A DNA stretch of 43,004 nucleotides from an uncultured Gimesia sp. Its GTDB lineage: Bacteria; Planctomycetota; Planctomycetia; Planctomycetales; Planctomycetaceae. The position numbers and the translations under genes are program-made. This document shows, one piece after another, positions 36,632 to 42,934 of the stretch (its first letter is position 1; every line of letters starts with the position of its first letter). The stretch spans positions 1 through 43,004 of the forward strand of contig NZ_CALEMX010000442.1 in NCBI RefSeq assembly GCF_937910335.1, read 5' to 3'. Below the pieces are notes generated by a model. That model worked only from the letters and a program-made list of their open reading frames with translations. It did no database searches and was not told the origin of the DNA.

Positions 36632-36799
36632 TATTTAAGATTCCTAGCATCTCACCAACGAGCACTGTTGAACCTGTTTTACAATTATGACATTGTTGTG
36701 TTTCTAGCCAAGGAACCACATGGAAAAATCAAGGCTGGGGATCTCGTGAATGCTGTCACACCATCGCTGCAACCAATGATCAACTGGGAACTCAGATGA
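36632..36799 (+). pseudogene. Short orphan coding tail (...YNYDIVVFLAKEPHGKIKAGDLVNAVTPSLQPMINWELR*), no ATG start
   Basis: Open frame from 36632 to TGA 36797-36799, overlapping the next ATG as ATGA. Confidence 0.4.
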
Positions 36800-37263
36800 A
36801 AACTGCCGATGAACTAGGAATAGTCTGGCTCGCTAAGGACGGACATATTGAGGTTTCCGGTATCAATTTTTATGGCTATTGGGGTCAAGATAAACTTCCA
36901 GATGAGATTTCTTCTCTCACTGATCTATTAAAAAGCCTTGAAGCGGAGTTTCTGGTTCAAAAAATTGAGGCTGATGAGGGGAATTTCCTCATTTTTTCCG
37001 TTTGGGTCAAAACTTGGCCGTCGGACAGAATATGGCGTCAAACAGTGGAGGGAATTTTGAACAAAATAGTCTTAATGGGAGCAAGCGTTAGTTGGAGTGG
37101 TGATGAGTATTGCTCTTGGTCGTTGACTGAACTTGATCCAGTCACGTCTGGTGGCTGCGTTTACGCAGCGTCATCGAGATCTACAGGATTGTTATTTCAT
37201 TCTGATTTATCTGAAGAAATTTCATATTTATCCGACGATGAACTACAGCGATTGCTCCGATAG
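36796..37263 (+). CDS. Uncharacterised 155-aa protein, immunity-protein-like by context
   Basis: ORF with balanced composition, ATGA-coupled to an orphan tail. Confidence 0.65.
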   Translation: MKTADELGIVWLAKDGHIEVSGINFYGYWGQDKLPDEISSLTDLLKSLEAEFLVQKIEADEGNFLIFSVWVKTWPSDRIWRQTVEGILNKIVLMGASVSWSGDEYCSWSLTELDPVTSGGCVYAASSRSTGLLFHSDLSEEISYLSDDELQRLLR

Positions 37264-38159: not shown

Positions 38160-39731
38160 TTAGAGAAGGCTAACTCTTTTCAGGTCCACTCTAATTAAGT
38201 TACCATCATTATGCTGAATTAGATTTTTTAGTTCCTTTACTGGGATGTTTGTGGGGACATAACGAATGGAACCATCCATCATGACCGCTATAAAGGCAGG
38301 ACTGGAATGTTGTCCTGTAGGCTTAATGGGGTCGACGGGATCGAATACAAGATCAACGGGTTTTGTCCACGGCACCGCTTTGTCCGGAGCTGCCTTAATT
38401 AACATGATGGTATTTGAAAATCCATCTGTGACATCTCTCAATCCTACTCCAGGGCCGCCAGTAAAGGGAGTCTTCTCGCCTGAAAATGTCATGAACTGTG
38501 TTTCTCCCGGTTTCGTTCCAGGATCAAGCTTAAAGACCTTCGGCATTTTTTTTATCAGACCTTTGTTTTGAGGACTGTCCCAAGGCTCGTTCAAATGGAA
38601 TTCTTTATAGAGCGCAGCTTCACCGAGAAACGGAAGCAGGTGAACCCGCCAGCTTAAAAGTGACTTCCCGTTGGTCAGGTGTTCTTTAGCAGGGGGAAAA
38701 CTCCTGAATTTATCAAGGTAGTTATGAAATGCAAGTGTGATTTCTTTTATGTTATTGAGCTGCCTGAGCTGTTCTGGTGAGAGACTTGTGTGAACAATGA
38801 TAAACTTATGCCATTCGACTCGCACTCCATCATCTGGACGAATCAATTTTTTCCACATGTCGTCCCCCGCATTTTTCATGACACATTGGACGCTTCCATC
38901 AACGAATAAGGCAGGAACACCTTCAGCAGTATTCCCCATAGCTTCGAGTGGTAACTTCTCGTCAAGCCCATCCGGCTTAGTCCATTTGACTGCCTGATCG
39001 GCGCCGACTTCGACAAGCATGACTGTATTTGATGCTCCATCTGTGATGTCACGAAAACTTGTTGCTTTACCAAGGGGGAATACTGTCGTCGGTTTTTTCT
39101 TACCCTTTGAATTCGGGGCCCATTGCCCTTCAAAAACATGGAAGCGAGTCAAATCAGAATTAGATGGGGTATCGGGAGAACGAAAAATATCTGGCATATT
39201 TTTGGCAAGAGGTGCATTGTTCGGACTGTCCCAGGGTTCATCCAACTTAAAACGTTCATATAGAGGTTTTTGATCCAAGTAAGGTAGAAGATGGACTTTC
39301 CAACTGACCTTGAGCCGCCCATTTTTATCATAATATTGAGGATACGTTTCCGGGTCTGGCATGAAACAGGGACCATTCTTGTTTTGATACGTATGGAAAG
39401 CAAAGCCGATTGTATTCAGCTTCTGTTTAACATTTTTATAGCGTTCGACTTTCATTCGTTTGCCGGGCGTAATGATCATTGATGGATCAATTGGCTTGTT
39501 CCGGGAGGTCGTGGATGTTTTGTCAGTTGAAGCAGCAGGCTTTGGAGAACTATTTTCATCGGGTGTTTTCGCTGCAGGTGTCTTCGCTGCTTGTGTATCG
39601 GCGGTCTGATCTTTCTTGCATCCGCCGGCGAGTGTCAGCAAGCTGACAGTACCTGCCAAAAGAATCGCCAACACGGGGTGCTGATGATGTATCGAAGACT
39701 GCTTGTGTCGAACGATGATTGACATTTTCAT
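38160..39731 (-). CDS. Lipoprotein with two tandem DUF1559-like domains
   Basis: Lipobox SLLTLAGGC; SWKVHLLPYLDQKPLYERFKLDEPWDSPNNAPLAKNMPDIFR and SWRVHLLPFLGEAALYKEFHLNEPWDSPQNKGLIKKMPKVFK; two ITDGASNTVML/VTDGFSNTIML segments. Confidence 0.88.
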   Translation of the reverse strand: MKMSIIVRHKQSSIHHQHPVLAILLAGTVSLLTLAGGCKKDQTADTQAAKTPAAKTPDENSSPKPAASTDKTSTTSRNKPIDPSMIITPGKRMKVERYKNVKQKLNTIGFAFHTYQNKNGPCFMPDPETYPQYYDKNGRLKVSWKVHLLPYLDQKPLYERFKLDEPWDSPNNAPLAKNMPDIFRSPDTPSNSDLTRFHVFEGQWAPNSKGKKKPTTVFPLGKATSFRDITDGASNTVMLVEVGADQAVKWTKPDGLDEKLPLEAMGNTAEGVPALFVDGSVQCVMKNAGDDMWKKLIRPDDGVRVEWHKFIIVHTSLSPEQLRQLNNIKEITLAFHNYLDKFRSFPPAKEHLTNGKSLLSWRVHLLPFLGEAALYKEFHLNEPWDSPQNKGLIKKMPKVFKLDPGTKPGETQFMTFSGEKTPFTGGPGVGLRDVTDGFSNTIMLIKAAPDKAVPWTKPVDLVFDPVDPIKPTGQHSSPAFIAVMMDGSIRYVPTNIPVKELKNLIQHNDGNLIRVDLKRVSLL

Positions 39732-40126
39732 TTCTCCAAACATAGATTGTAACACGTGAAAGATTGTGCATTGAATAACCGTTGAATATCTTTTAGTGCC
39801 TGATAGCCCAATACCTGTAATAAAAAGGGGGCAGCAATTGATATTACTGGACCTGCCTCCTTATATCATCCTTGCTTATGAATACTTTGATTCATCGTCT
39901 TCAAATCCTCCAAGAAAATATCTCTGTAAACATCATACGGACTCGTCTCACGTTTCCCTAATACATGCTGTTACGATTGATTATAAAAACATTCAGCAGC
40001 ATTATCGAGTTCTCTCGCTCTTTTTGCCGGGTAGTGTTTCTGATTTCCAATAGTTCATTGCAACCTGAGAGTAACCGTGGCTAACGCCATTCGGCTAATG
40101 ATCAAAAACAAGATCAGTCGCAAGGC

Positions 40127-40142
40127 ATTAACCGCGGTTAAT
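40127..40142. repeat. Perfect 16-bp palindrome ATTAACCGCGGTTAAT
   Basis: Exact dyad symmetry. Confidence 0.8.
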
Positions 40143-40146
40143 ATCG

Positions 40147-40320
40147 ATCTCGTTAAAGGCGTCTTTTGATTTTTTCTTGTATCCTGACCGTGTCTGGTTT
40201 AGGCTATTGTGATCATTGGGGCTGCGACGATTTCTGACTGCACAATTCGGCCTTGAAAGCATTCATTAACCAAGAGAAAAGCCCAAAAGAACAGTTTTGG
40301 ATCCGGACACCTTTATTTTT
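40147..40320 (+). repeat. Dispersed direct repeat, copy 1
   Basis: TTTTTCTTGTATCCTGA...TTTAGGCTATTGTGATC...ACGATT...ACTGCAC...TCATTAACCAAGAG...CCCAAAAGAAC...CCTTTATTT matches copy 2 at 42758-42905. Confidence 0.85.
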
Positions 40321-40321
40321 C

Positions 40322-40530
40322 GAGACAGTGACAGACAACTATCTCTATAGTGTGTTTGGCGAAGTCAAAAGCAGTACGGGAACTTCAAGGTGATTCTCCG
40401 GGAGGATATTTTCGCAATCATTACGGCATATGACAATCAGCCACATACACGTTGGTCGAACCGAAATAATTGGCGAACGGATTTTGTAGAGGAGACATAC
40501 AAGGCTTTCCGTTGTAACACTCAACGCTGA
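40322..40530 (+). pseudogene. Frameshifted Rhs/YD-repeat protein remnant and orphan C-terminal tail
   Basis: Frame 2: ETVTDNYLYSVFGEVKSSTGTSR* (40322-40393), Rhs-core-like; frame 1: CVWRSQKQYGNFKVILREDIFAIITAYDNQPHTRWSNRNNWRTDFVEETYKAFRCNTQR* (40351-40530). Confidence 0.6.
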
Positions 40531-40549
40531 AGGGTAATTAACAGATCAG

Positions 40550-41017
40550 ATGGATGTTTCCAAATATAGCTGTAGTAACAAACCTACTCGTGACCAATTG
40601 GTGAGCGTTTCTGACTCTCTGGTGAATACGCTCGCTGAAACGATTGGCATCCCACTAGCCTGTTTCAAACGCCACATTGTTGAGGGAGAGTCGACCGTTA
40701 CGACAATCCAGGGTTCGATTGGTAATGGCGCTATCCTTGACATGTGTATTGAGGGGGTTGTGTTGGTTCAAATGAGAAACAATGAGCCACCTAACATTAA
40801 CGCAGAACTTCTCTTGTTCAGTAGAGGTGAGAGGTTGGGGACGCAGCGATACAATGGGCGCAGCTATCTATTGTTGGATTTTGATTCTACGCAGAATCCT
40901 GCCTCATGGACTAGCCAGGAATGGATAAACGATGGTCCAGATGATTGGGAGGCCATTTCGCAGCCGAGGACGGATTTATACGGAGAATTAAAGGAATCTT
41001 GGGAAGACAACGACTAA
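40550..41017 (+). CDS. Uncharacterised 155-aa protein, candidate orphan immunity protein
   Basis: Intact acidic ORF starting 19 nt after the Rhs-tail stop. Confidence 0.6.
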   Translation: MDVSKYSCSNKPTRDQLVSVSDSLVNTLAETIGIPLACFKRHIVEGESTVTTIQGSIGNGAILDMCIEGVVLVQMRNNEPPNINAELLLFSRGERLGTQRYNGRSYLLLDFDSTQNPASWTSQEWINDGPDDWEAISQPRTDLYGELKESWEDND

Positions 41018-41073
41018 GACGATTCTAGACCGCACACACTCCTGAAGGATTTCCTCCTGTGAAACAGACTGAT

Positions 41074-41178
41074 ATGCGGAATTCATCCGCAACGAAAAGT
41101 AATCGTCGTCTCTTATTGAAACAGATTACGGCGACAACAACGCTACGTCGAACTGTGGTTCCTAACATCGTTTATTAA
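41074..41178 (+). pseudogene. Possible Tat-signal remnant MRNSSATKSNRRLLLKQITATTTLRRTVVPNIVY*
   Basis: Short ORF resembling the twin-arginine N-terminus of planctomycete exported oxidoreductases, then stop. Confidence 0.4.
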
Positions 41179-41216: not shown

Positions 41217-42650
41217 TTATTTCTGTTGATAATCTTTTCCATTGAGGCTTTGGATCACTGACCGCATCCATGCATCGAGCTCTTGCTGCATCCTTGCCAG
41301 TCGTGGGGCTTGTTGGGGATCTTTGGAAAGATCGGTTTTCTCCATCGCGTCATCGGTCAGGTTGTACAATTCGAATTTTGTGCCGCCGATACGATGCAGC
41401 TTCCAAGGCCAATCGGTCCAGGCGGCATGTCCGGTTGTGGTGTGTTCTGGAAACTGCGGGAATTCGTCGACGTCTTTGCGCATTCTTGGTGGATCATGCG
41501 GTAGCGGTGCGCCGGCCTGTTGCTTTTCCATGATCGCCTTCTGAATCCGGTCGCTCCGAGTTCCCTGCCCGCCCTGGATTTTGTGCCAGAACCCCATTGG
41601 CTTACTGCGTTCTGTCACCGATCCCGCAATGATGCCGCTGACATCCATACCATCGAGCGGATGCGGCGCATACAATTCTATGCCCGCCATGGCTAAGAGG
41701 GTTGGATAGATATCAAAGGTCGACGCGGGTACCGAGGTTCGACCTTTGAGCTTGCGTGCGGGCCATTCGATGATCCCCGGCACGCGCAGGCCCCCTTCGT
41801 AGATGCTGCCCTTCCTCTCGCGGCCACCGGAAGTTTCCTTGACCAACCCGCCGTTATCACTGCAGTACCAGACGATGGTATTCTCTGCGATGCCCATTTT
41901 CCTGATCGCAGCCCGAAGACGTCCGACTTGCTGATCAAGCAGCGTAATCTCGCGGTAGTAGCCCGCATGCGGTTTACCATCGTAGAGGCTGGGGCCATCC
42001 GGCACTTCCGCGTGCGGGTCATGCGGAGACGGGAACCAGATGACGGTGAATATTGGACGATCACCGGCCTTGTGTTTCTTGAGGAAGTCGATCGCATCAT
42101 CCATCAGGATGACCGAGCCCTTCCCCTGGCGATGCTCGATCTTTCCCTTTCGGCTCAAGTAGGGATCGTTGTCGAAAAAGTTGAGGCCGACCACCCATTC
42201 ATCGAATCCCATGCCACTGGGATTGCAGGGCGAGTTTGGTTGTCCCGAACCCAAGTGTACTTTGCCGAAAATCCCGGTTACGTATCCGTTGGCTTTTAGC
42301 GTCTCGGCGATGGTCTGTTCATGCGGGCGCATGTAGCGGCCATGGTTGGTGACTTTGGTTCGAATCGGGTTGCGCCCGGTCATCACGCTGGCGCGGGTCG
42401 GTGAGCAGACCGGCGCGCCGGCATAGAACCGATCAAATACGAAGCCGTCTTTGGCCATGGCATCGAGTGCTGGTGTCTGCACAAACGGATGACCATTATA
42501 GCCGGTATCTCCCCAGCCCTGGTCATCCGCCATCACAAGAATGATGTTGGGTTTACCAGAGTTTTCCAAAGTTGCGGCAAAGGATATTCCTGTCGCGGAC
42601 AAGCAAAATATAAATTCCATCGCTGCTAAAAAGCTACGTTGATTCAGCAT
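41217..42650 (-). CDS. Secreted type I sulfatase (formylglycine-dependent)
   Basis: KPNIILVMADDQGWGDTGYNGHP, sulfatase signature APVCSPTRASVMTGRNP, TGIFGKVHLG, SDNGGL; signal peptide. Confidence 0.96.
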   Translation of the reverse strand: MLNQRSFLAAMEFIFCLSATGISFAATLENSGKPNIILVMADDQGWGDTGYNGHPFVQTPALDAMAKDGFVFDRFYAGAPVCSPTRASVMTGRNPIRTKVTNHGRYMRPHEQTIAETLKANGYVTGIFGKVHLGSGQPNSPCNPSGMGFDEWVVGLNFFDNDPYLSRKGKIEHRQGKGSVILMDDAIDFLKKHKAGDRPIFTVIWFPSPHDPHAEVPDGPSLYDGKPHAGYYREITLLDQQVGRLRAAIRKMGIAENTIVWYCSDNGGLVKETSGGRERKGSIYEGGLRVPGIIEWPARKLKGRTSVPASTFDIYPTLLAMAGIELYAPHPLDGMDVSGIIAGSVTERSKPMGFWHKIQGGQGTRSDRIQKAIMEKQQAGAPLPHDPPRMRKDVDEFPQFPEHTTTGHAAWTDWPWKLHRIGGTKFELYNLTDDAMEKTDLSKDPQQAPRLARMQQELDAWMRSVIQSLNGKDYQQK

Positions 42651-42757: not shown

Positions 42758-42905
42758 GATCGTAACAGGATGGTATTTTTCTTGTATCCTGAGCAGGGCT
42801 TGTTTAGGCTATTGTGATCTTCATGCCTGAGACGATTCCTTACTGCACTCATCAACCAAGAGGAAGGTCCCAAAAGAACCACTTTGGTTCTGGGTACTTT
42901 TATTT
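42758..42905 (+). repeat. Dispersed direct repeat, copy 2, containing hairpin AGAACC-acttt-GGTTCT
   Basis: Match to copy 1; lacks ~19-20 nt (aattcggccttgaaagcat) present in copy 1. Hairpin arms 42875-42880 / 42886-42891. Confidence 0.85.
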
Positions 42906-42934
42906 GTTTATACAGCGCAGTCGTGCCCCCTTTT

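Follow-up and report, generated by a model that had tools for sequence, protein, structure and literature searches.

A Probable Orphan Immunity Gene of an Unnamed Protein Family Behind an Rhs Relic in a Planctomycete Contig

The segment at 40322–41017 of a 43,004-nt stretch of DNA from an uncultured Gimesia sp. very probably represents the remains of an Rhs toxin–immunity module, with its 155-aa open reading frame (ORF) being an orphan immunity gene of an unnamed family. The whole stretch, called the window throughout, comes from contig C442 of a genome that totals 6.5 Mb in 635 contigs. A sequence-only reading had proposed that a toxin remnant is followed here by an immunity gene kept after toxin loss, and had regarded the proposal as lost if the upstream segment lacked an Rhs match or if homologues of the small protein never occurred beside polymorphic toxins. 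The opposite was found on both counts. Rhs proteins carry toxins as their C-terminal domains, and the immunity gene follows each toxin gene immediately, in many cases with translational coupling (PMC3482391 and PMC10539506).

The upstream segment, previously likened to the YD-repeat end of an Rhs core, is a genuine but severely truncated Rhs core relic. A DNA profile (nhmmer) built from 15 Rhs cores of same-genus genomes was searched over the whole window and gave one significant match, 63 nt at 40322–40384 on the plus strand (ETVTDNYLYSVFGEVKSSTGT; E = 9.4e-12), and the DNA at 40322–40383 is 76–82% identical to same-genus Rhs genes. The frame reads TVTDNYLYSVFGEVKSSTGTSR*, with its stop at 40391–40393. 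In intact relatives, the core continues for approximately 70 codons to ..NNAATLTDPSGL and then enters the variable toxin region. The window core breaks off after SSTGT and no core similarity is detectable past 40384; instead of an intact run to DPxG and a C-terminal toxin domain, there is a frame change and a stop. We accordingly regard the relic as real but cut short to a large extent. The host genome carries two further Rhs cores elsewhere, and a same-genus relative (G016, 5330–5362 kb; L102 and L103) has at least five clustered Rhs cores with differing C-termini.

The change of frame into an open tail can be read directly from the DNA. The second frame, at 40385–40530 on the plus strand, stays open through KVILREDIFAIITAYDNQPHTRWSNRNNWRTDFVEETYKAFRCNTQR* to a stop at 40528–40530, giving a tail of 53 aa (~146 nt). 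As a query by itself, the tail retrieved no significant homologue, and a search across 199 genomes of the class returned three weak matches, none in frame with a toxin. It aligns weakly with the C-terminus of the toxin encoded in genome G694 (GNFKVILREDIFAIITAY / GNVVITQADDVTRVITAY; score 39, shuffle p 0.002–0.003), at a nearly equal distance from the stop codon. Values were p 0.04 in shuffles against the toxin of Stanieria and p 0.026 against a two-sequence toxin profile. This likeness was first noticed by eye and tested afterwards, and for that reason we count it as suggestive only. Of the proposed toxin remnant, the Rhs part stands, while the tail as the possible C-terminal end of a lost toxin is only weakly supported (shuffle p 0.002–0.04). 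Reading the tail as a shifted continuation of the decayed Rhs core (DSESGLYSLRNRF versus DSPGGYFRNHYG) was not significant (p 0.26–0.75).

As the earlier reading had noted, an intact ORF begins 19 nt past the tail-frame stop. It runs from an ATG at 40550 to 41017 on the plus strand and encodes an acidic 155-aa protein (pI 4.4). An open stretch of this length has a chance of approximately 3% within the surrounding 1461-nt gap. Codon usage is atypical, with a codon score inside the range of non-coding frames, and the 3-base periodicity is marginal (p = 0.01). The ORF is present as a single copy, and we found no convincing promoter or terminator for it, with sites at chance level. The protein matched nothing in Pfam, NCBIfam, PHROGs, PADLOC, the PDB, phages, or plasmids. 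Searches of plasmids, phages, and IMG/VR gave zero matches, and two scans of GTDB contigs yielded no new relative. A single-sequence AlphaFold2 model reached a pLDDT of 39.8; adding one relative raised this to 55.5, a low-confidence model that predicts a helix, six strands, and a helix. The top PDB structural match of the protein, CapZ beta (E = 0.03, TM 0.4), is not interpretable.

Decisive evidence that the ORF is more than chance comes from its protein family. By profile comparison, the 155-aa protein belongs to a real, previously unnamed family, for which neither Pfam nor NCBIfam has a model. Its 11 members are divergent and come from Planctomycetota and Cyanobacteriota. Among 170 genomes of the window's taxonomic family, two tandem genes in G617 were retrieved (E = 1.3e-16 and 5e-8). 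A four-sequence profile searched against 398 genomes of the class then matched proteins in G691 (6.5e-16), G697 (2.6e-11), G462 (3.2e-9), G071 (1e-3), and G694 (0.011), and the Stanieria and Calothrix members were added by tblastn, with toxin and immunity genes from G694 and Stanieria as queries. The first candidate relative, in G161, was not significant alone and was accepted only once the family profile existed; other early weak matches (L078–L080, L082, and L089–L094) proved to be chance. In leave-one-out comparisons, all 11 members scored 29–73 bits against the profile of the rest, versus 4–10 bits for the best of 2000 shuffles. The window protein itself scored 70.4 bits against the profile of the ten others (E = 7e-18 at Z = 1e6), where 2000 shuffles reached 6.7 bits at most. 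Against a profile of four toxin- or array-linked members, it scored 19 bits (E = 0.064 at Z = 1e6; best of 2000 shuffles, 6.6). Pairwise identity is 13–28%. The alignment (A6) shares an ..A.L.LF....R.. stretch and a C-terminal W...GW..D...EW motif, and the window protein is full length with the family motif positions kept.

The genomic context of the relatives points to immunity. In G694, the start of the family gene overlaps the stop codon of an Rhs ORF (TGATG). This Rhs ORF starts at the contig edge as ..RYVSNSPTNLVDPSGR, includes a PT-HINT domain (E = 1.6e-19), and closes with a C-terminal domain that Pfam does not name. On a plasmid of Stanieria cyanosphaera, an RHS-repeat gene (PF05593) is followed by a toxin-domain gene and, 3 nt on, by a family member. 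Over its C-terminal 123 residues, the product of this toxin-domain gene (WP_051036133.1) shares 48% identity with the toxin domain of G694 (E = 4e-27). Since the same toxin domain stands beside a family member in both, the pairing of toxin and small protein is conserved across two phyla. A third member, in G691 (L121), has five SUKH immunity genes and an ankyrin-repeat gene as neighbors. Approximately 6 kb downstream of it are two fragments, one with RHS repeats (PF05593, E = 1e-9) and one HINT-like, the latter assigned by eye and lacking a Pfam match. Together, these neighborhoods support the orphan-immunity reading that had been put forward. Within the window's own genus, no family member was found beside an Rhs gene. 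The G691 region at 1730–14800 of L121 resembles a polyimmunity array and also contains several unnamed small genes.

Other members occur in a range of settings. Plasmids p3 (L131) and p2 (L132) of Calothrix sp. PCC 7716 each carry the same intact immunity gene behind a stop-riddled stretch. The last 31-aa piece of this stretch (PWADNPNYVEISSRQNC) is weakly recognizable as a toxin end (E = 0.017 among 598 frames). The two G617 members are tandem and overlapping. In G697, a member is accompanied by a 36-aa remnant of a second (E = 0.012), with a DDE transposase fragment upstream; in G462 (L123, 7884–9053), the member directly follows an ADP-ribosylglycohydrolase gene (E = 1.5e-70). The gene preceding the G161 member matches a PHP domain weakly, and no toxin was seen near it or near the G071 member.

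The window gene is an orphan in that no intact cognate toxin adjoins it: upstream lie only the 63 nt of Rhs core and the ~146-nt tail. Its wider setting is a 1.5-kb intergenic gap (1461 nt) consisting of relics and this single intact ORF, flanked by a gene for a 531-aa protein (38160–39755, minus strand) and a sulfatase-like gene, its function assigned by eye (41217–42650, minus strand). Outside the cassette, as background, a MITE-like repeat copy occupies 40026–40166 (plus strand), with the terminal sequence GGTAGTGTTT at its 5′ side and lacking its 3′ end. This repeat, ~195 bp long, has ~30 matches in the genome at 73–94%, several of them at contig ends; intact copies terminate in inverted AAACACTACC(T)GG and have the terminal inverted repeats CCAGGTAGTGTTT / AAACACTACCTGG.

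The Rhs and immunity sequences split a second decayed gene, of BNR/sialidase type. Its upstream, promoter-side region (40155–40246, plus strand) is 84–89% identical to sequence in G000:C143 and G004:C62, where the counterpart runs straight into the gene start. The relic of its 5′ end (41014–41165, plus strand; VKQTDMRNSSATKSNRRLLLKQ.., Tat-signal-like) is 80–82% identical to the same two contigs, and the intact C143 gene is assigned to BNR_2 (E = 1e-21). Upstream region and first codons (40155–40246 and 41018–41165) adjoin each other in G004 and on a different contig of the host genome; in the window, the Rhs/immunity stretch lies between them. It is bracketed by direct repeats of 25 nt at 40222 and 41014, which are imperfect (68%), and the junction between the insert and the BNR relic is at the stop codon of the 155-aa ORF. 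Between the BNR upstream region and the Rhs relic lies a spacer (40247–40321, plus strand) with a second copy at 42849–42915, upstream of the sulfatase gene (direct repeats D2 and D4, 74–80%). A second copy of the BNR upstream region, including this spacer, is located at 42776–42915. The window also contains another 155-aa ORF, at 36796–37263, which has low GC3 and atypical codon usage, falls outside the immunity family, and went unmatched in searches of Pfam, NCBIfam, PHROGs, and PADLOC.

Several observations weigh against the orphan-immunity reading: the window protein has diverged from those relatives whose toxin is visible, several other relatives come without any toxin in view, codon usage is weak, a convincing promoter is lacking, and the tail–toxin similarity is weak. 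Some of these would fit a family gene that arrived separately, for instance from a polyimmunity array, and came to lie beside the Rhs relic by chance. The atypical codon usage, the other members likewise without a toxin in view, and a tail that is not securely a toxin end are all compatible with such an origin. We nevertheless consider it unlikely, as the arrangement here, Rhs relic, short tail, and then immunity gene with a gap of 19 nt, matches that around the intact toxins of G694 and Stanieria.

Slightly less probable still is that the ORF is a decaying passenger, the former immunity gene of a lost Rhs toxin that has simply gained no stop yet and is neither expressed nor protective. The single copy, the weak codon-usage signal, the chance-level promoter and terminator sites, and the relics all round (the MITE fragment and the BNR-gene relic) would be expected of such a passenger. 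However, the ORF has kept its full length and the family motif positions amid badly decayed Rhs and BNR relics, and intact orphan copies recur, in Calothrix and as the G617 tandem. That the ORF is spurious, as its codon score inside the non-coding range might suggest, is negligibly probable and already refuted by full-length family membership at E = 7e-18.

Under the preferred reading of an orphan immunity gene, a deletion would have taken the remaining Rhs core together with the larger part of the C-terminal toxin domain, leaving remnants in different frames, while the downstream immunity gene stayed open. The 155-aa protein would most likely bind and block a C-terminal Rhs toxin domain of the G694/Stanieria type, and, lacking its own toxin, the gene could protect the cell from such toxins delivered by neighbors. 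We infer neutralization, expression, binding, and selective retention alike. Orphan immunity proteins may protect from incoming non-self effectors (PMC3482391 and PMC10539506).

An orphan immunity gene is an ordinary kind of object; its family is absent from the libraries we searched. Rhs polymorphic toxin systems, as presented in PMC3482391 and, for orphan Rhs modules, PMC3967940 and PMC3150448, share with the window an Rhs core fragment, a variable tail, and a small acidic gene, and the relatives of the window protein are coupled to PT-HINT/Rhs toxins. The differences are that core and toxin are only relics here and that Pfam and NCBIfam both lack a model for the immunity family. Orphan immunity genes, such as that for Serratia Rhs NADase immunity (PMC10539506), similarly have no intact cognate effector adjoining, whereas the present case is in a planctomycete and its protection is putative. 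Polyimmunity loci (PMC3482391) are resembled by the G691 member in its SUKH-rich array with Rhs fragments; the window, in contrast, has one immunity gene only. SUKH (SMI1/KNR4) proteins are of similar size and neighbor the G691 member, but the window protein had no SUKH match in Pfam, and profile–profile comparison with five SUKH proteins (hhalign, probability 0.2%) left kinship with the family unsupported.

These results define an immunity family missing from the searched libraries, whose candidate toxin partner is conserved across two phyla. They also provide at least two independent cases, the window and Calothrix, in which the immunity gene is intact and the toxin region next to it has decayed. 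Protective retention of orphan immunity genes thereby becomes testable in environmental bacteria, beyond gut and proteobacterial models. We tentatively propose, at somewhat less than even confidence, that this Planctomycetota/Cyanobacteriota family blocks an uncharacterized Rhs C-terminal toxin, possibly a BECR-type nuclease, and that its members have repeatedly been kept as orphans for protection against non-self toxins. The only hint of this activity is that the toxin domain matched PBECR3 nucleases below threshold (E = 0.17). Separately, contig 219 of G538 (L106) carries near-identical HINT-containing toxin-like ORFs in tandem, with small ORFs interleaved.
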